From NCBI GenBank assembly GCA_021810565.1, contig JAJZIM010000010.1, positions 1 through 64,000 on the forward strand: a DNA stretch of 64,000 nt. The letters run 5' to 3'. The notes under the pieces were generated by a model, which saw nothing but the letters and a program-made list of their open reading frames with translations, was not told the origin of the DNA and ran no database searches. Positions 9,835 through 54,868 of the stretch are shown here, piece after piece. The stretch is from Bacillota bacterium (lineage in GTDB: Bacteria > Bacillota > Sulfobacillia > JAJZIM01). How positions within the stretch are numbered: the first letter of the stretch is position 1; every line of letters starts with the position of its first letter. A program made the translations under genes and the position numbers.

Positions 9835-11844
<2,010 letters not shown>

Positions 11845-45894: not shown

Positions 45895-47787
45895 ATGCCC
45901 TTACGGCCCTTGGTGGTGAAGACCTTCTTCTATCTGCCACAAGGCCAGGGCAAACGGTCTCCTCTGGCCCACTTTAAAAAGGCAGTGGATCACCTGGAGT
46001 ACATGGGCAACCCGAAGAAGGAGGAGCTGGTGCGGGCGGGGGAGGGGGATGATCCCCGGGAAAGCGCAGCCGTCCACGCGGCCTACATGCAGGGCCGTCC
46101 AGGGAGCACCGGGTACATCGGCCCTTCCGACACCGACCTGCCGGACCCAGATGCGTTGGCAGAGGAACTGCGCCAGCATCAGGGACCTGTTTGGCGCGTC
46201 ATCGTGTCCGTGACCGAGAAAGACGCCAAGAAGTTGGACCTCTTGGACCGTCCCAGGTGGGAGGAGACATGCCGCAGTCTTGTGCCGAAAATGGCGGACC
46301 ATCTGGCAATACGGCGGGAGGACCTGGTTTGGGTGGCCGCCATGCACCGCAAGCGTGGCCACCCGCACATCCATCTGCTCTTTTGGGAGCGCGGGGCTTC
46401 CCGGGAAAGGGGCATGTGGTCGGACTGGGAACGCAAAGGCATCCGCCAGGACTGGATCAAGATGCTCTATGCCCCGGAGCGGGACCGCCTGGCCATGAAG
46501 ATGGCTACCGACCGGCTGCTTGTGGAACAGGGAGTAAAAGAAGAGCTTGGCCAGGCCGTCCCGGCCTGGCGCATGGCGGCCGCCAAGCGTGACGACCAGG
46601 CCGTAACCCCTCGCCTTTCCACTCCCAAGGCGGAGGAGCTGGCACGCCGGCTGGAGGAGATCAAGGGGATGTTGCCGGGCAAAGGCCGGCAGGCCCTGGG
46701 GTACATGCCCCAGGAGGTGAAGGCAAAGATTCGGGATACGACAGACTGGCTCATAAGATCGGTTCCCGAATACCGCAAGGCCCTGGACAGCCACGTGGAG
46801 ATCATGCGGGAGATGGCCGGCCATTTCAGCGATGATCCGGAAGAGGCAACCAAGGCGGCCAGCAAGGCCGAGGCACGGGTACGGGACAAGGTAGCCCAGA
46901 ACGTTCTGCGGGCCGCGGTGGCCCTGCAGAATGCCGAGCGCCGGGAAGAGGTACTGCGGATCGCCGCCGCCGCCACGAAGGGCGGCCGGCGGGTCAGGGG
47001 CATGCCTCTCCAGGGCCTGCCTCCGGACCTATCCAGACACGTGCACGCGGAGATCCAGCGCATATCCCACCTGGCGCCGAAGCAGCGCCGGGACGAAGCC
47101 CTGGCCCTGGCCCGGAAGCTGCTGGCCCAGCCGGCGGCGGCAGGGGCCACCCGGGCTTTTCGGCGCCAGCTGGCCACCGAGGCGGCGGGCAAGGCCATGC
47201 CGCCCAAATGGCTGGACGAGCACTCCTCCCAACCCCTTCCGCTCCCTGACCGCTTCGGGTGGCTGGCCCCGGCGCTCGCCAAGGATGCGGCGGGGAGAAC
47301 CCCCGGCAGCGACGCCGCCCAGGCGTGGCACCGGCAGATAAACGCTGTCCACCAGGCTCCGCCGGGAACTCGCCGGGAAGCTGCGGATCGGGCAGCCGGC
47401 TGGCTACTGCGGCAGCCGGAGACGAAGGCAGCACTGGCCGCGCACCTGCGGAGCGTCTCCCGCGGGGGCCGCGCCGCGGCCTATCGGGAGGTGCGGACCC
47501 AACTCGCCCGTGTCGTGGACCACCAGGTGAAGCACCTGGCAGCTCAATGGGCCAGGGACCAGGTGGCGAAGGGCATGGACCGCCTCGCCCGGTACGTGGG
47601 GCGGTCCATCGGCTGGGCGGCGCAGTACGCCGCCTTCCGGCGGGCCAATCAGGCCCGCCAGTTGGTCATGGGCCTGTACGCCGGCCTGCTGCGCCAGGCC
47701 CGGAAAGAGGAGCGGGAGGCGGAGGCGCGGGCGCTGGAGGAGGAGGCCCGGCGCAAGCGCCAGTCTCAATCCCAAATGCAGATGTAG
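45895..47787 (+). CDS. MobP-type relaxase
   Basis: 630 residues; AGGGGGAA before ATG. The HUH motif HPHIH (His 156, 158, 160) lies in VAAMHRKRGHPHIHLLFW, and the N-terminal KTFFYLPQGQGKRSPLAHFK is typical of MobP3-like relaxases of Firmicute elements. The relaxase nicks oriT and leads the strand through the channel. The catalytic domain spans about residues 1-230; a long helical C-terminal region follows, basic and Ala/Arg-rich, suited to DNA or coupling-protein contacts. Confidence 0.87.
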   Translation: MPLRPLVVKTFFYLPQGQGKRSPLAHFKKAVDHLEYMGNPKKEELVRAGEGDDPRESAAVHAAYMQGRPGSTGYIGPSDTDLPDPDALAEELRQHQGPVWRVIVSVTEKDAKKLDLLDRPRWEETCRSLVPKMADHLAIRREDLVWVAAMHRKRGHPHIHLLFWERGASRERGMWSDWERKGIRQDWIKMLYAPERDRLAMKMATDRLLVEQGVKEELGQAVPAWRMAAAKRDDQAVTPRLSTPKAEELARRLEEIKGMLPGKGRQALGYMPQEVKAKIRDTTDWLIRSVPEYRKALDSHVEIMREMAGHFSDDPEEATKAASKAEARVRDKVAQNVLRAAVALQNAERREEVLRIAAAATKGGRRVRGMPLQGLPPDLSRHVHAEIQRISHLAPKQRRDEALALARKLLAQPAAAGATRAFRRQLATEAAGKAMPPKWLDEHSSQPLPLPDRFGWLAPALAKDAAGRTPGSDAAQAWHRQINAVHQAPPGTRREAADRAAGWLLRQPETKAALAAHLRSVSRGGRAAAYREVRTQLARVVDHQVKHLAAQWARDQVAKGMDRLARYVGRSIGWAAQYAAFRRANQARQLVMGLYAGLLRQARKEEREAEARALEEEARRKRQSQSQMQM

Positions 47788-47799
47788 GAGGTGACTTCG

Positions 47800-48033
47800 T
47801 TGGCCAAGCATCGTAGGCGCCACCCACCCCGCACCCAGGCCCAGCACGCTGAGCCCCAGGAAATTCACGACAGCCAGCTGAAGGAACGGTGGCCTCGATG
47901 GCCTGCCGCGCTTGGCACTACCCGGGGGGGCGGCTTTGAGGCTACCCAGGCCGAGTACGAGGGATGGGGTGGTCCCAGGGACCACCACCATCAGTTGGAC
48001 GAACTCGGCATCCACGTGGTGCGCCGGCCATGA
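47800..48033 (+). CDS. Small basic/His-rich hypothetical protein
   Basis: 77 residues from TTG 47800, 8 nt after an AGGAGG that overlaps the relaxase stop region. Basic N terminus (KHRRRHPPR) and a central aromatic segment, no domain recognised. Overlaps the next gene by 4 nt (ATGA), so it belongs to the transfer operon. Confidence 0.5.
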   Translation: MAKHRRRHPPRTQAQHAEPQEIHDSQLKERWPRWPAALGTTRGGGFEATQAEYEGWGGPRDHHHQLDELGIHVVRRP

Positions 48034-48539
48034 TCCTGCGGCGAAAGCGCATGTGCCTGGCGGCCGCCATCGGCGGCGGGGTGGCTGCCCTGGTGGTGGC
48101 GGAGCCCGTGGTGGCCTACCTGGCGGTGCTGGTCCCTCTGCGCCGGCCTGCCGGCACACCCCCCGCCCCTCCGGCACAGACCATGCACCAGGCGGCGGCG
48201 CATTGGGCCGCATGGACCCACTCCGGCGGGTACTGGCCCTGGCACGTTTGGGCGGCGCTTCTACTGCGCCACCCGCACAGTCTGCTCGTGGTGCTGCTGG
48301 TGGCCCTGGCGGCGGCGGGCCTCATGGCCTACGCCGCCCGTGGGCGCGGCGGGGTGTCCACCTGGGGCGGCCCTCCGCCGGCGGGCAAGGGGCAGCACGG
48401 GACCGCCCACTGGCGCACCCACCAGGACTTGGCCCGAGGATTCACCCTGTGGGTGCCTCCCAAGCAGGAGGTGAGGGTTCATGCTGCTGTTGCGGAGCCG
48501 GATGGAGAGTCGGCACCAAAGGAAGACGGAACTGCCTAG
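48030..48539 (+). CDS. N-terminal membrane part of a split coupling protein (VirD4/TraG)
   Basis: 169 residues with two hydrophobic helices (AAIGGGVAALVVAEPVVAYL and LLVVLLVALAAAGLMAYA) followed by GQHGTAHWRTHQDL, the GxARW-type segment that in VirD4/TraG proteins links the membrane anchor to the ATPase. It ends shortly afterwards, 59 nt inside the next gene, which begins with the ATPase domain. The halves together look like one ordinary coupling protein. Confidence 0.75.
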   Translation: MILRRKRMCLAAAIGGGVAALVVAEPVVAYLAVLVPLRRPAGTPPAPPAQTMHQAAAHWAAWTHSGGYWPWHVWAALLLRHPHSLLVVLLVALAAAGLMAYAARGRGGVSTWGGPPPAGKGQHGTAHWRTHQDLARGFTLWVPPKQEVRVHAAVAEPDGESAPKEDGTA

Positions 48540-50184
48540 CGGTATATTGGTCGGCCAGGGACCCCGGCCCGGCACCGCCTGGGTCCTCACCGCCGATGAG
48601 CATGTTCTCCTGGTCGGCTCACCGGGATCCGGCAAGAGCCGGCGCATAATCCTCCCCACCATCGGGGTAATCGGCATGGCGGGTACCGAGTCCATGCTGA
48701 TAAACGATCCAAAGGGCGAACTGTACGCCTACAGCGCGGACTGGCTACGGTCCAGGGGCTACCGCGTCGTTAGGATTGACCTGCGGCAGCCCTCCCGCGG
48801 CAACCGTTGGAACCCGGTCAAGGCCGTGGCGGACGCCCTGGCGGCGGGCCGGTGGGACGCCGCGTCAGCACTGGCATGGGACATCGGACACCTGTTCGCC
48901 TGGTCGAGCGAGTACAAGGGCGGTGATCCCATCTGGCCGCAGTCCCAGGAGGCCCTGATCGCGGCCCTCGTGCTTGGGGTGGCCCAGGGGAAGCCGCCGG
49001 GACCCTTCGCCGACGACCCCAGGCTGTCGGTAACGATAGCCGCTAAGGTGGCCAAGGCGCCCTGGCCCAACGCCGACACCATGCACATGGCCTCGGTGTA
49101 TCAGTCCCTGATTAGCGGCGAGTCCGGGGGGCGCCGCATAGACGAGTGGATGCGCCTCCTCCCGGAGGGACATCCGGCCCGCAGCGCCTTCGGCCCGGTG
49201 AGCTTGTCCACGGACAAGACCCGCTCCTCGATCCTGACGGGGGCAGGCGCCAACCTGCGCCTGTTCGGGGACGGCGAGGTGGCTTGGCTCACCGCCGCCC
49301 AGGACCACGACCTGGCCGATCTGGGCCGGTGCCCGACGGCGGTATTTCTGGTCATCCCCGACGAGCGCGGCACCCGCTACCCACTGGCCACCCTCTATAT
49401 ACAGCAGACCGTCCAGGCGCTGACGCAGCTGGCCGACACCAACGGAGGGCGCCTGCCGGTCAGGGTCAACATGCTCCTTGACGAGTTCGGCAACCTGCCG
49501 CAGCTGCGCGATTGGGATCATACCGTCACGGTGTGCCGCGGGCGCGGCATCCGGCTGCTCCTGGCCCTGCAGGACCTGGCGCAGCTCAAGCGCCACTATC
49601 AGGAAGCCGCCCAGACCATCAAGGGGAGCTGCCGGGTGTGGCTGTACCTGCTCACGGCGGACCTCGACACCGCCAAGGAGATCTCGGGCAAGCTCGGGGA
49701 ATACACCACCTTCGGCGAAACCCAGAGCATGCCCAAAGTCTATTGGACCTCCAGCAGCGTGCCCGGCCACGCCACCAACACCCAGACGTTGATGAAGCGG
49801 CCGCTGCTCCTTCCGGACGAGTTGCTGCGCTGGCCGGAGGGCCAGGCGTTGGTGCTGCAGGCCCGCCACGCGCCGGCGCGGCTGACCCTCCCCGACCTGT
49901 CGGCCTGGGATGTTTTTCGAGAAATACAGGAGCCGATCTCCCAGGCCCCGGAAAGGCCGGTGCGGGCGCCCACGGTGTGGCGGCCGGGAAAGGAGTTGGA
50001 GCCGCCCCCAGGCGCGGTGGGAGCGCAGACTGGCGGCGGGGCCGGAGGAGGCGGTGGGCACGGTGATCCCGGCGGCATCCCCGTTGAGGAGCTGGGGACC
50101 GCCATGCAGATGCCGCTCCGAAACATGGCGGCTGCGCTTGCCGCCCAAACAGTCCGTGCCGGCGGGGATGGCACGGAGGAGTAG
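48481..50184 (+). CDS. Coupling protein ATPase (VirD4/TraG), soluble half
   Basis: 567 residues; AGGAGGTG lies 6 nt before the ATG at 48481, inside the membrane-half gene, so the split is built for separate translation rather than a recent frameshift. Walker A GSPGSGKS (46-53), NDPKGELY, Walker B VNMLLDEFGN (Asp about 334) and the late GRGIRLLLALQDLAQL are complete. Recruits the relaxosome to the channel. The C-terminal tail is Gly/Pro-rich. Confidence 0.9.
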   Translation: MLLLRSRMESRHQRKTELPSGILVGQGPRPGTAWVLTADEHVLLVGSPGSGKSRRIILPTIGVIGMAGTESMLINDPKGELYAYSADWLRSRGYRVVRIDLRQPSRGNRWNPVKAVADALAAGRWDAASALAWDIGHLFAWSSEYKGGDPIWPQSQEALIAALVLGVAQGKPPGPFADDPRLSVTIAAKVAKAPWPNADTMHMASVYQSLISGESGGRRIDEWMRLLPEGHPARSAFGPVSLSTDKTRSSILTGAGANLRLFGDGEVAWLTAAQDHDLADLGRCPTAVFLVIPDERGTRYPLATLYIQQTVQALTQLADTNGGRLPVRVNMLLDEFGNLPQLRDWDHTVTVCRGRGIRLLLALQDLAQLKRHYQEAAQTIKGSCRVWLYLLTADLDTAKEISGKLGEYTTFGETQSMPKVYWTSSSVPGHATNTQTLMKRPLLLPDELLRWPEGQALVLQARHAPARLTLPDLSAWDVFREIQEPISQAPERPVRAPTVWRPGKELEPPPGAVGAQTGGGAGGGGGHGDPGGIPVEELGTAMQMPLRNMAAALAAQTVRAGGDGTEE

Positions 50185-50196
50185 GAGGGACCCACG

Positions 50197-51600
50197 ATGG
50201 ATGGCTCTTCGGCGCTGCTGTTCTGGCGGTTGCTCTACCAACACTGCGGGGGCTACCTGGAGCTACGGGCCGTACCCGAACATTCCGGTGGGGTGACCCT
50301 TCGTCGGTTCTACGCCATTCCCGAAGAACTCGTCTCCGCCGAGCGGTTCGCTGCCGCCAACGACGGCCAGGCGCACGTGTTCTTCTCCGCCCTGCCACGG
50401 GCGGAGCCCCGGGGCGGCTCCGACGCGGTGCGCACCGTGCCGCTGCTCTTCGCGGACATCGACGCCAAGGACTTCGCCGGCGGGGAGGCCCAGATCGAGG
50501 ACCGGCTGGACAACCTGGCGGCGGTGGGGCTTGGTCCCACCGCCGTGGTGCGTTCCGGGGGCGGCGGCAGGCACGCCTACTGGCTCCTCCGGGAGCCCGT
50601 GCCGGTGGCCACACCGGCGGACGCCGCCCGGGTGAGGGATACCCTCTGGGCCTTGGGGGCAGCCGCGGGCATACCGCCCAAGGCCAACGTCGTGACAGAC
50701 CTGGCCAGGATGCTCCGGGTGCCCGAAACCCACAACATCAAGGCCGAGTACGGCAGTCCACAGTTGTGCCAGGTTGCCGAGTTGCACCCGGAGCGGGCCT
50801 ACGACCTGGGCGACTTCGCGTCCTTGGTGCGGGCCAACCCGCGGCCCGTCAGTCCGCAGGCTGGCCGGGAGTGGGTGGCCTTCTCGCAACCGGGGCTGCT
50901 GCCCAGCGATCCGGAGGAGCTGCTTCGGGACCTTCCCATCAATCCCGCGATCCTCGACTTGATCCGCGGAGGGGCGCCCCAGGGGCAGCGCAGCGAAACC
51001 GACATGAAGGTGATTGTGGCCCTCGTCTCGGCTGGAACCGATCAGAACCGCATCCGGGACATCTTCCGCCACCCGCGCCTCTCCATCGGTGCAAAGTACC
51101 GGGAGCACATCCAGCCGGACCACTACCTCGGCTACAGCATCAGCAAGGCCAAGGCGTGGCTGGCGGCCAACTCCAGAAAGGAGGTGGGCACGGCTCCGCA
51201 TGCCATGAGGGGAGGTGAAGACAACGTGAGCCGCACCTACGCCAACATCGAGATCATCGGCAGACTCACGGCAAAGCCTGAGATCCGCGATACGCCGGGC
51301 AACCACAAGGTGGGCCACATGACCCTGGCGGTGGACCGGCCGGGCCAGGGGGACAAGACCGACTTCTTTCGCGTGACCACATGGGACAAGCAGGCCCAGG
51401 CTTGTCACGACTACCTCGACAAGGGCGACCTGACCTTCGTGCGCGGCGAGCCCCAGCTCAACGCCTACGAGAAGGACGGCCAGAAGCGCCAGAGCTTCGA
51501 CGTGGAGGCCAAGGACGTGCGCTTCCTGGAGAAACAGCAGACCCATGAGTCGGGCCTCCCGGACCCCGAACCCGCCGCAAACGCGGAACCGGATCGCTGA
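50197..51600 (+). CDS. Primase (AEP/RepB-like) fused to single-stranded DNA-binding protein
   Basis: 467 residues; GGAGG before ATG. The N-terminal domain fits archaeo-eukaryotic-type primases of plasmids: VPLLFADIDAKDF (Asp 87 and 89) and VVRSGGGGRHAYWLL (about 118-130). A helical region follows to about 330. Residues 344-447 are a complete SSB OB-fold (ANIEIIGRLTAKPEIRDTPG, HMTLAVDRPG, TDFFRVTTWDKQA, GDLTFVRGE), with the acidic tail ending in Asp-Arg. There is no stop between the two, but an internal ribosome site and GTG lie exactly at the domain junction. Suited to priming and coating the incoming strand. Confidence 0.85.
   Translation: MDGSSALLFWRLLYQHCGGYLELRAVPEHSGGVTLRRFYAIPEELVSAERFAAANDGQAHVFFSALPRAEPRGGSDAVRTVPLLFADIDAKDFAGGEAQIEDRLDNLAAVGLGPTAVVRSGGGGRHAYWLLREPVPVATPADAARVRDTLWALGAAAGIPPKANVVTDLARMLRVPETHNIKAEYGSPQLCQVAELHPERAYDLGDFASLVRANPRPVSPQAGREWVAFSQPGLLPSDPEELLRDLPINPAILDLIRGGAPQGQRSETDMKVIVALVSAGTDQNRIRDIFRHPRLSIGAKYREHIQPDHYLGYSISKAKAWLAANSRKEVGTAPHAMRGGEDNVSRTYANIEIIGRLTAKPEIRDTPGNHKVGHMTLAVDRPGQGDKTDFFRVTTWDKQAQACHDYLDKGDLTFVRGEPQLNAYEKDGQKRQSFDVEAKDVRFLEKQQTHESGLPDPEPAANAEPDR
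51226..51600 (+). CDS. ssb: Nested SSB translated from an internal start
   Basis: GAGGGGAGGTG followed 8 nt later by GTG at 51226, in frame with the primase gene, would yield a free 124-residue SSB beginning at VSRTYANIEIIG. The site lies precisely where a stand-alone ssb gene would start, so two products from one frame are likely: a primase-SSB fusion and free SSB. Confidence 0.65.
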   Translation: MSRTYANIEIIGRLTAKPEIRDTPGNHKVGHMTLAVDRPGQGDKTDFFRVTTWDKQAQACHDYLDKGDLTFVRGEPQLNAYEKDGQKRQSFDVEAKDVRFLEKQQTHESGLPDPEPAANAEPDR

Positions 51601-51621
51601 GGGAGGGGCGCTGCCCCTCCC
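51601..51621 (+). promoter_or_regulatory. Leader hairpin between SSB and the first HEAT-like gene
   Basis: Perfect 9-bp stem GGGAGGGGC-GCT-GCCCCTCCC immediately after the primase-SSB stop and 9 nt before TAGGAGG of the next gene. No T-run follows, so gating or RNA stability is as likely as termination. Confidence 0.55.
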
Positions 51622-51642
51622 TCCACATTAGGAGGTATTACC

Positions 51643-52035
51643 ATGACGCCCCTGGAGATCCTGACCGACCTGCACGCCGCGGGGCAGGCCGAGCGGCTGG
51701 CGGCGGTGGACGCGCTGACGGCCCAGGACCTGTGGACCGCCGACGTGCGGCTGGCGCTGTTTCGCGTGGTGTACCAGGACCCCGCCGTGCCCGTGCGGCT
51801 GGCGGCGCTGCGGGCATTGGCCGCGCGCCGCGGTGACGAGATGTGGGAAGTGCTAACCGAACGCGCCATGCGCCATGCAGCCGCCTACGACCCATCCGCC
51901 GAGGTGCGCCGGTTCGCCGGCCAGGCCGTGGTGGTCTACGCGGCCACCTACGCCGCCGAGGCGCTGGCCGCCCAGCGGTTCGTGGCCGAGGTGACCGCCG
52001 GTGATTACGTTCCGGCGCTCCTGCGGGGGGAGTGA
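51643..52035 (+). CDS. HEAT-repeat-like protein 1
   Basis: 130 residues; TAGGAGG before ATG. Paired helices with the DP-A-VR-AALRALAARR and PSAEVRRFAGQAV style of HEAT/armadillo-like repeats. Function unknown, presumably protein binding. First of three similar genes; its stop overlaps the next start (GTGA). Confidence 0.6.
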   Translation: MTPLEILTDLHAAGQAERLAAVDALTAQDLWTADVRLALFRVVYQDPAVPVRLAALRALAARRGDEMWEVLTERAMRHAAAYDPSAEVRRFAGQAVVVYAATYAAEALAAQRFVAEVTAGDYVPALLRGE

Positions 52036-52649
52036 GCCTCATGGAGATGATTGACGACCGGACCATACCGCCCGTGCCGCCGGCGCCACCCATAGCCGAG
52101 CTGGACGGCGGGCTGCCCCGCGACCAGAGGACCAGCCTGCAGCTGGCCATCACCGACGCCTGGCGCTCGGGGCGCGGCGTGGACCTGGCCCGCATCGTCG
52201 GGGACCTGGGCCGCTCGGACGAGGCCCGCCTGGCGGCGGTCCAGGCGCTGGCGCGTACCGGCTGGTACGTGCCGCGCGGCGACTACGATGCGGTGCGCGG
52301 GGTGGAGGAGTGCCTGTGCGTGGCGGCCCTGCGCGATCCCAACGCCGCCGTGCGCCAGGTGGCCACCCAGACGCTGGCCGCACGCTACGAGGCCCAGGAT
52401 AGCCTGGCATGGATGCCGCTGCGAGTGCGCCAGAGCCTGGAGACGGTGGCCATCGACGACGCCGCCGTGCCGGTGTACCAAACCGCGGCGCTGACCCTTG
52501 CCAAGGCGGATCGGCAGCGGGTGCAGGCGGAGGTGGCCGTGGACCGCCTGGAGGCCCAGGAAGCCATGCGCTTCGTGGCGCGGGCGCAGGCGCACGACTA
52601 CACGCCCGAACTCGGGGGCGGTATGGAGCGGGGGGGTATGGAGCATTGA
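52032..52649 (+). CDS. HEAT-repeat-like protein 2
   Basis: 205 residues from GTG 52032. After a Pro-rich start come repeated helical units: SDEARLAAVQALARTG, ALRDPNAAVRQVATQTLAARY, DDAAVPVYQTAALTLAKADR. The DP-AAVR pattern matches the neighbouring proteins and HEAT repeats. Overlaps the next gene by 4 nt (TTGA). Confidence 0.6.
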   Translation: MSLMEMIDDRTIPPVPPAPPIAELDGGLPRDQRTSLQLAITDAWRSGRGVDLARIVGDLGRSDEARLAAVQALARTGWYVPRGDYDAVRGVEECLCVAALRDPNAAVRQVATQTLAARYEAQDSLAWMPLRVRQSLETVAIDDAAVPVYQTAALTLAKADRQRVQAEVAVDRLEAQEAMRFVARAQAHDYTPELGGGMERGGMEH

Positions 52650-52840
52650 ACGAATTCCTCGCCGAGAAGCTGCTGGACGAACTGCTGGCCCAGCACCGCC
52701 AGGACCCCAGGCGGCAGCCCGATCCGGAGGACAGGTCCGATCGCTTCGTTACCCACGTGCTGGTGCCCGCGCAGCCGGCTGTTGACCCATCCCTTGCCGA
52801 CGACAAGGAGACGGAAACCCAAGAGGAACCGGACCGATAG
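52646..52840 (+). CDS. Small acidic protein with DR tail
   Basis: 64 residues from TTG 52646 inside the previous stop, with a G7 stretch upstream. An N-terminal helix (NEFLAEKLLDELLAQHRQDP) is followed by a mostly acidic, unstructured part ending QEEPDR. One of the acidic Asp-Arg tail group; no known domain. Confidence 0.5.
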   Translation: MNEFLAEKLLDELLAQHRQDPRRQPDPEDRSDRFVTHVLVPAQPAVDPSLADDKETETQEEPDR

Positions 52841-52861
52841 TGCCATGAGGAGGGATCAAGC

Positions 52862-53458
52862 ATGCGCCGCCACTGGATAGACGAGGGACCGCCGTCGCTG
52901 CCCCGCCCGCTCGACACATGGATCGCGATGCCCGTACCTCAGTTGCTGGCCTACCTCCAGCATTCCGAACCCGAAACGGCGCCGCACAGGATCGAGGCGG
53001 CGTTGGTCCTGGCCACCGTGCACACCAGGCCCGGGGGCGGCCCGTTCAGCCCGGACGACCGTCGGGTAATGCGGCAGGCCATGCTCCACGACCCGCAGCC
53101 CGCGGTGCGCCATGCGTGCGCGTACAGCTTGGGGGTCCAGTTCGCCAACCGCCTGATGCCGGCGGAGGAGCGGGCCGCCCTGGACTGGGTGGCCAGGTAC
53201 GATACCGATGTCACGGTGGCCGATGCAGCCGGCTACTTCCTCGCCCGCCAGCGGGCCTACGAGTTCCAGAAGGCGGTGGAGGGTGACCGCATGGCATGGG
53301 TGCGGGGTGACGTAACCCGCGAGGAACTGCCGCCGCAGCCGGAGGAGGCACCCAACCGGATCAATAGCCTCTCCGAGAATGCATATCGGCAACTTGAGGA
53401 GGCTGCGGGCGAGTTCGACCCTGGTCCCGGCTACGACGGTGAGGAACTGGACCGCTGA
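52862..53458 (+). CDS. HEAT-repeat-like protein 3
   Basis: 198 residues; GAGGAGGG before ATG. Contains MLHDPQPAVRHACAYSLGVQ and a DTDVTVADAAGYFLARQ unit, the same DP-AVR repeat type as the two genes upstream. C terminus acidic, ending EELDR. The stop is part of CTGAGGAGGTGG, the ribosome site of the next gene. Confidence 0.6.
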   Translation: MRRHWIDEGPPSLPRPLDTWIAMPVPQLLAYLQHSEPETAPHRIEAALVLATVHTRPGGGPFSPDDRRVMRQAMLHDPQPAVRHACAYSLGVQFANRLMPAEERAALDWVARYDTDVTVADAAGYFLARQRAYEFQKAVEGDRMAWVRGDVTREELPPQPEEAPNRINSLSENAYRQLEEAAGEFDPGPGYDGEELDR

Positions 53459-53474: not shown

Positions 53475-53621
53475 ATGGACGATTGGCTGACCCGTTACGG
53501 CGGCGAGTACCTGGACGGCAGCGGCCTGGAGGCCGAGCCGCCCGACGCACCCGAAGCCGCTGACGACTACCCGGAGGAGGCGCAGGAAGCATGCCCGGCA
53601 GAGACTACAGGCAGGAGCTGA
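53475..53621 (+). CDS. Small acidic protein
   Basis: 48 residues; GAGGAGGTGG lies 8 nt before the ATG. MDDWLTRYGGEYLDGSGLEA then a Glu/Asp/Pro-rich tail. Overlaps the ArdC start by 31 nt. Could be a chaperone- or inhibitor-like partner of ArdC, but this is only from position. Confidence 0.45.
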   Translation: MDDWLTRYGGEYLDGSGLEAEPPDAPEAADDYPEEAQEACPAETTGRS

Positions 53622-54868
53622 CCGACAAGCTGGTGGCCGCCCTGGAGGCCGGAACGGCCCCCTGGCAACGGCCTTGGGACCCCGGCATGAGCTTGCCCCA
53701 CAACCCGACTACCGGCAAGGCATACCGCGGGGCGAACGTCCTGGCGCTGCAGATGCAGGCCATGGCCTCCGGCTACACCGATCCCAGGTGGTGCACCTAC
53801 CGCCAGGCGCAGGAGCGCGGGTGGCAGGTGCGCAAAGGCGAGCACGGTAGCGTGGTAACTTACTGGAAGCGCACCGAAGAGGTTGTCCAGAAGGACCCCG
53901 ACACCGGCGAGGAGCGCAAAACGGAGGTGGCCGTGGAGAAGCCCCACCCGTTCAGTGCGGTGGTCTTCAACGGCAGCCAGATCGACGGTATCCCCGCCCT
54001 GGAGCCCCGCCAGAGTGCCTGGGCGCCCGCCCTGCGGGCGGAGTCTATTCTTGCCGCCAGCGGTGCCCGGATCGTCCACGGCGGGGCGCGTGCCTGCTAC
54101 GTGCCGTCCAGCGACACGATCCACCTGCCGCCGCGGGACACCTTCCACACCGCCGCAGGCTACTACGACACCGCGCTCCACGAGCTTACCCACTGGACGG
54201 GGCATGAAAGCCGGTTAAACCGACTGGACGGTGCCGCCTTCGGTACTCCGTCGTATGCCCGAGAGGAACTGCGGGCAGAGATCGGCTCCATGTTCCTGTC
54301 GGCGGAAACCGGCATAGCGCACGACACAAGCCAGCATGCCGCCTACGTGGGCGAGTGGATCAAGGTCCTGCGTCAGGACAAGCACGAGATCTTCCGCGCC
54401 GCCGGTGACGCCAACCGTGCCGCCGACTACCTCCTGGCCAAGGAGCAGGAACAGGAGCGCCAGGAGCCCGCCAGGGCCGCGGACAGCGCCGAAGCCCTGC
54501 TGGCCCAGGCGGCGCAGCAATTCCGTGCGGAGGGCCATGCCGCCGGGGAGGCACTGGCGGCGGAGGCGGCAGCCGCAGAGGCGGACGCCGCCTACCGCTC
54601 CCTGGTGCTGTCCTACCAGTCGGGCGTGGACCTGCCCACGGCAGCCGTGGAGGTGGCCCATGCCCGCCACCTGGACGGCGGCACGGCGGCGCACATGGCC
54701 TGCCTGGTGTACTTCCACCTGGAGCGCCAGGGCGCGCCCCAGGTGTCCCCCGACGCCTGGGAGGCCGCCCAGGCCCAGGCGGCGGATCAGGACCGGGAAC
54801 TTTTCGAGGTGGACCCGGCGGACTTCGGCCTGGCGGGGCTGGGCCGTGACGCGGACATGGACCGCTGA
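53591..54868 (+). CDS. ArdC-like antirestriction protein
   Basis: 425 residues; GGAGGAGG before ATG. The N-terminal ssDNA-binding domain (ELTDKLVAALEAGTAPWQRP, GKAYRGANVL, W-TYRQAQERGWQVRKGEHG) is followed by a zincin-type metalloprotease domain with HELTHW (His 197, Glu 198, His 201) and a later EELRAEIGSMFL. A helical Ala/Glu-rich C-terminal extension of about 150 residues ends in DADMDR. From the literature as I recall it, IncW ArdC protects incoming ssDNA from restriction and can be carried into the recipient. Confidence 0.9.
   Translation: MPGRDYRQELTDKLVAALEAGTAPWQRPWDPGMSLPHNPTTGKAYRGANVLALQMQAMASGYTDPRWCTYRQAQERGWQVRKGEHGSVVTYWKRTEEVVQKDPDTGEERKTEVAVEKPHPFSAVVFNGSQIDGIPALEPRQSAWAPALRAESILAASGARIVHGGARACYVPSSDTIHLPPRDTFHTAAGYYDTALHELTHWTGHESRLNRLDGAAFGTPSYAREELRAEIGSMFLSAETGIAHDTSQHAAYVGEWIKVLRQDKHEIFRAAGDANRAADYLLAKEQEQERQEPARAADSAEALLAQAAQQFRAEGHAAGEALAAEAAAAEADAAYRSLVLSYQSGVDLPTAAVEVAHARHLDGGTAAHMACLVYFHLERQGAPQVSPDAWEAAQAQAADQDRELFEVDPADFGLAGLGRDADMDR

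Follow-up and report, generated by a model that had tools for sequence, protein, structure and literature searches.

Does a single gene in this conjugative element supply both a primase that carries an SSB and the SSB on its own? In the window (the whole 64,000-nucleotide stretch of DNA analyzed here), a frame of 467 codons runs without a stop along the forward strand from ATG 50197 to TGA 51598–51600. The first-pass annotation had read this frame as an archaeo-eukaryotic-type primase (AEP) and a complete SSB, separated by the codons MRGGEDN, which it took to be a translated ribosome site. The shared frame was borne out by the stop-free 467 codons together with domain and fold matches, and the translated site by the presence of GGAGGTGA in the junction sequence. 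On balance, the locus is probably a lineage-specific fusion of a RepB′-type AEP primase with a plasmid-type ssb, in which the SSB start has been kept and both products are made, in the manner of RSF1010 mobA/repB.

The transfer operon and the two halves of the frame

The locus belongs to a transfer operon carried by a MobL/VirD4/VirB4 conjugative element, within a genome of 3.18 Mb in 115 contigs (GC 68% over the 1.04 Mb sampled). On the same strand, the operon carries a MobL-type relaxase (45895–47787; PF18555, E = 1.7e-13) and a VirD4-type coupling ATPase (48481–50184; PF02534, E = 4.2e-54), whose stop lies inside the Shine-Dalgarno (SD) sequence of the primase gene; the primase start has an SD of its own, TAGGAGGGACCCACG-ATG. 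Three consecutive small HEAT-repeat-like proteins (51643–53458) lie between ssb and the gene for an ArdC-like protein (53591–54868), which is 2 kb downstream of the fusion. Beyond it are VirB2-, VirB6- and VirB4-type genes, named from resemblance and synteny. The window's VirD4 comes in two pieces, an N-terminal membrane part (47964–48539) and the ATPase part (48481–50184), which occupy different frames. A strong 8-base SD of its own, GCAGGAGGTGAGGGTTC-ATG 48481, precedes the ATPase part, and the window holds about 50 extra bases at the split; VirD4 is one frame in the relatives G443, G445, G502, G507, G504 and G501.

Residues 1–330 form an AEP whose predicted fold matches RSF1010 RepB′ (PDB 3h20). 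Its catalytic domain (aa 1–215; 50197–50841, forward strand) contains DID (87–89), GGRH (H126) and D168-LARMLRVPETHN, and the corresponding AEP motifs I (DxD, D87-I-D89), II (H126) and III (D168) are conserved in near relatives. A C-terminal helical domain follows (aa 239–329; 50911–51183, forward strand), recognized from the model helices and spanned by the 3h20 alignment; we infer that it is PriCT-like. The Foldseek match to 3h20 (E = 1.5e-9 over 344 columns, with a high rmsd owing to a different domain arrangement) is the best PDB fold match outside SSBs. The primase half has no primase family match in Pfam or NCBIfam, and the label consequently needed checking. The absence from Pfam is a limit of the library and does not define primases. 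Matches to PHROG primase families 2478 and 10514, the conserved motifs and the RepB′ fold support the label, with primer synthesis as the predicted activity. The nearest named relatives of this primase are labeled as Bacillota MAGs.

The SSB half comprises 124 codons from GTG (51226–51597, forward strand) and holds a complete OB fold that matches B. subtilis SsbA (Foldseek, PDB). PF00436 matches aa 351–444 (E = 1.9e-20; 73.3 bits against a cut-off of 26), and TIGR00621 scores 63.9 against 53.95. Its C terminus, AANAEPDR, lacks an acidic tip. Such a tip is usual in housekeeping SSBs, where it recruits partners, and is not required by the OB-fold family. The tip is also absent from ssb1 and ssb2, the two ssb genes of a paralogue element on contig C23 of the same genome, whereas the SSB of contig C93 ends in DVLPF. 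In a 23-sequence AlphaFold2 model of the 467-aa protein (mean pLDDT 88.7), both folds are confident, and the linker (332–346, containing MRGGEDN) and the tail (447–467) are disordered; as modeled, the linker has the length and flexibility that tethering the primase to SSB tetramers would require.

A G+C-rich hairpin with an 11-bp stem and no T run lies after ssb (51599–51623, forward strand; -24.3 kcal/mol, z = -2.94). A strong G+C hairpin without a T run also lies after C23 ssb1 (locus L015, about 10010–10045; z = -4.4), and the same fold test was not significant after C23 ssb2. The two hairpins are possibly message-stabilizing ends of ssb cassettes.

The internal start and the reading frame at the junction

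The junction letters at 51205–51231 read ATG AGG GGA GGT GAA GAC AAC GTG AGC. The translated ribosome-binding site occupies 51205–51225 on the forward strand, with the core GGAGGTGA at 51211–51218, which matches the anti-SD complement over 8 bases; its GGAGG ends 10 nt before GTG 51226, from which a free product of 124 aa is predicted. Another SD-like run, the near-perfect AAAGGAGGTG, lies within the last primase codons (51177–51186, forward strand), some 30 nt upstream of the SSB site, but no start codon in the SSB frame follows it at a workable spacing.

An internal SD is not evidence when taken alone. We scanned 615 open reading frames (200 aa or longer) taken from 1.04 Mb of this genome for in-frame internal SDs of at least 7 matching bases followed by ATG or GTG, and found 108 such motifs against 108 expected from codon shuffling (26 had an SD of at least 8 bases). 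Because the motif is ordinary in this genome, only its coincidence with the start of the SSB domain is significant; we estimate the chance of a motif falling within a few codons of that start at about 1e-3. The start itself can be located by alignment: the window's VSRTYANIEIIGRL aligns with MASTYSEILLVGRL of both C23 SSB genes at the same start residue. C23 ssb2 is certainly a free gene, as a stop codon interrupts its frame seven codons ahead of the ATG, and the aligned SSB start is therefore real. The earlier proposal that an SD and a GTG lie exactly at the SSB start therefore holds, both in the junction sequence and against free-standing paralogues.

In the favored mechanism, a primase gene and an ssb gene would have been joined into one frame that still contains the ssb ribosome site. 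Ribosomes coming from the primase start would read through that site and produce the 467-aa primase-SSB, its halves connected by some 20 flexible residues. Ribosomes binding at GGAGGTGA would start at GTG and produce the free 124-aa SSB, as suggested by the strength of the site and the matching start in the free paralogues. Free SSB tetramers would coat the transferred single strands, while fusion subunits within SSB tetramers would keep the primase on the coated DNA for complementary-strand synthesis.

The principal alternative, which we rate as a tentative but serious possibility, is that the locus is an ordinary overlapping pair: the primase would end in the ssb SD or at a GTGA overlap, and the gain or loss of one base in the run of G at 51209–51212, either a sequencing or assembly error or a recent private mutation, would have joined the frames, leaving any fusion incidental. 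Both non-SSB frames stop at the ribosome site (TGA 51206–51208 and TGA 51216–51218, forward strand), so one net base of length nearby decides between a fused gene and overlapping genes. Stops inside an SD are also common at this genome's junctions (55 of 424, including VirD4-to-primase). However, off-frame stops come with GGAGGTGA...GTGA leaders in general and are consequently weak evidence for a pair. The codon usage of the primase tail (51160–51225) is 0.09 bits/codon in the fused frame, compared to -0.60 and -0.59 in the shifted frames and 0.38 ± 0.24 in real genes. An early frame shift in the tail is rejected on these grounds, as codon usage is coding in the fused frame to about 51187; over the last 25 bases or so (51187–51214), it is neutral on a shift. 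An assembly riddled with indels is unsupported as well, as a nearby start is lacking at only 14 of the 375 tight junctions found across 837 kb of coding DNA. With so few frame breaks, an error at this junction has a low prior probability; the locus was singled out for its oddity, however, which raises that probability.

Two further explanations fare less well. The window's copy of the element may be in flux or decay, as its virD4 is split compared to all relatives. It is nonetheless improbable that the split virD4 and the fused primase-ssb both reflect degradation and that neither product matters. The split is confined to the window, with virD4 in one frame in the genomes of six relatives, but the catalytic and OB-fold residues are retained in the fusion's domains, the second half of virD4 has an 8-base SD and ATG of its own, and VirB2, VirB6 and the VirB4 region have intact, well-conserved counterparts on C23. 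The least probable explanation is a true fusion with an unused internal site, in which only the 467-aa protein is made and host SSB supplies the SSB function: the continuous fused frame, the several other host SSB genes (one with a DVLPF tip) and a junction RNA fold that pairs both SDs with preceding CTCC bases (z only -1.4, not significant) are consistent with it, but the site has an 8-base SD at a workable spacing, kept exactly at the SSB start, and SDs this strong are found at only 40 of 876 called starts.

The paralogue element and the search for relatives

The choice between a fusion and an ordinary pair also depends on what related elements contain. The closest relative of the window primase is the C23 primase (65% identical), located in a syntenic transfer operon. 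It is unfused, with two ssb genes upstream of it, and ends GAA GGG AGG TGA, its stop lying within an GGGAGGTGA motif like that of the window's SSB ribosome site, as expected of an ordinary pair. After the stop, GGCAACAAGCCGCA resembles the window's ssb leader GACAACGTGAGCCGCA, which also favors a pair, though the likeness is weak: the alignment scores 13, compared to 8.6 ± 1.4 for shuffled sequences, and the best of 500 shuffles reached 15. Past this stop (L015 8555–8585, reverse strand) is an SD-like sequence without a start, followed by bases like the window's ssb start. From these hints, the bases after the C23 stop are possibly the remnant of an ssb that once followed the primase.

C23 ssb1 (L015 10050–10799, reverse strand) is itself the in-frame end of a longer frame with 135 upstream codons. 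These codons score as coding (0.16 bits/codon, compared to -0.7 in the shifted frames), and the ssb1 ribosome site is likewise translated (IARRLDT-M). Homology searches gave no convincing relative for the 135-codon part. As a second instance of the window's arrangement, ssb1 favors the fusion reading. It suggests movable ssb cassettes, each bringing a ribosome site along, but a pair of examples from a single genome is no proof of a device.

A fused primase-SSB was found nowhere else among 154 genomes of the class, 72,556 plasmids and 50,697 phages, nor in the sole sampled genome of the family, a 399-genome sample of the phylum, contigs of the species or viral contigs, and none of the plasmid and phage records spans as much as 80% of the fusion. 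The fused arrangement is known from this one genome. Primases that are 43–52% identical (L030–L032) are followed by other C-terminal regions and by no SSB, and the related operons of G443, G502, G507 and G504 have neither a primase nor an ssb between virD4 and virB2. The search for separate and fused homologues proposed by the first-pass annotation therefore gave a separate primase, on C23, and no second fused copy in the sampled genomes, plasmids and phages. The annotation had also named relatives with a stop before ssb as grounds against its reading. This was half borne out: the C23 primase stops inside a like SD, but no relative has an unfused primase-ssb pair in that order. With neither a fused relative nor one showing the unfused order, the fusion can be called neither ancestral nor erroneous.

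Comparison with known systems and significance

In RSF1010 mobA/repB, one frame yields a relaxase-primase fusion, and free RepB′ is translated from a start within that frame (PMC6854812; PMC5862659). RepB′ and the window protein share the plasmid AEP primase fold (3h20), and both loci have an in-frame internal start at a domain boundary. In RSF1010, however, the primase is preceded by a relaxase and is itself the free product, whereas in the window an SSB follows the primase and is the predicted free product. The PrimPol-PV1 primases of mobile elements have an AEP followed by a helical domain, as in the window, and the window protein is without a helicase, as are the RepB′ and RepE/RepS types; the partners described in the available portion of that survey are helicase, HTH, Zn and relaxase domains, with no SSB fusion among them (PMC5862659).

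In other mobile elements of Bacillota, adjacent genes encode a primer-making enzyme and its OB-fold SSB partner, as in CcPol-MP and other A-family polymerase-SSB pairs (PMC10061031). These enzymes are A-family rather than AEP, and the pair consists of two separate proteins in one complex, with no shared frame or internal start (PMC10061031). Conjugative elements encode polyvalent proteins in which ArdC-N, which binds ssDNA, and Primpol are the prevailing domains, but ArdC-N is not an SSB OB fold, and the accessible sections of that study describe no internal restart (PMC5512222). The C23 element resembles the window in its synteny, its 65% identical primase and its two adjoining ssb genes, and differs in that its primase is unfused and its ssb genes lie upstream. 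A literature search found no paper on a primase-SSB fusion. The earlier view that the arrangement had not been described consequently stands in part: an AEP primase-SSB frame with a retained SSB start is absent from the literature and collections searched, while the device of making a fusion and a free domain from an internal start has been described for RSF1010 mobA/repB and others (PMC6854812).

If the junction is a private frame change, it serves as a warning on reading fusions from one assembly. We consider unlikely the broader proposition that this lineage's conjugative elements repeatedly place ssb cassettes, ribosome site included, in frame after a different gene, so that an SSB-tailed upstream protein and free SSB would come from one message, as a general way of tethering proteins of replication or transfer to coated single strands. 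If the window's frame does yield both products, one gene would set a fixed share of SSB subunits bearing primase, and the element would have a natural tethering of a primer-making enzyme to the coated single strands that enter the recipient. The locus would then also provide a simple model of how a ribosome site becomes a protein linker upon gene fusion.
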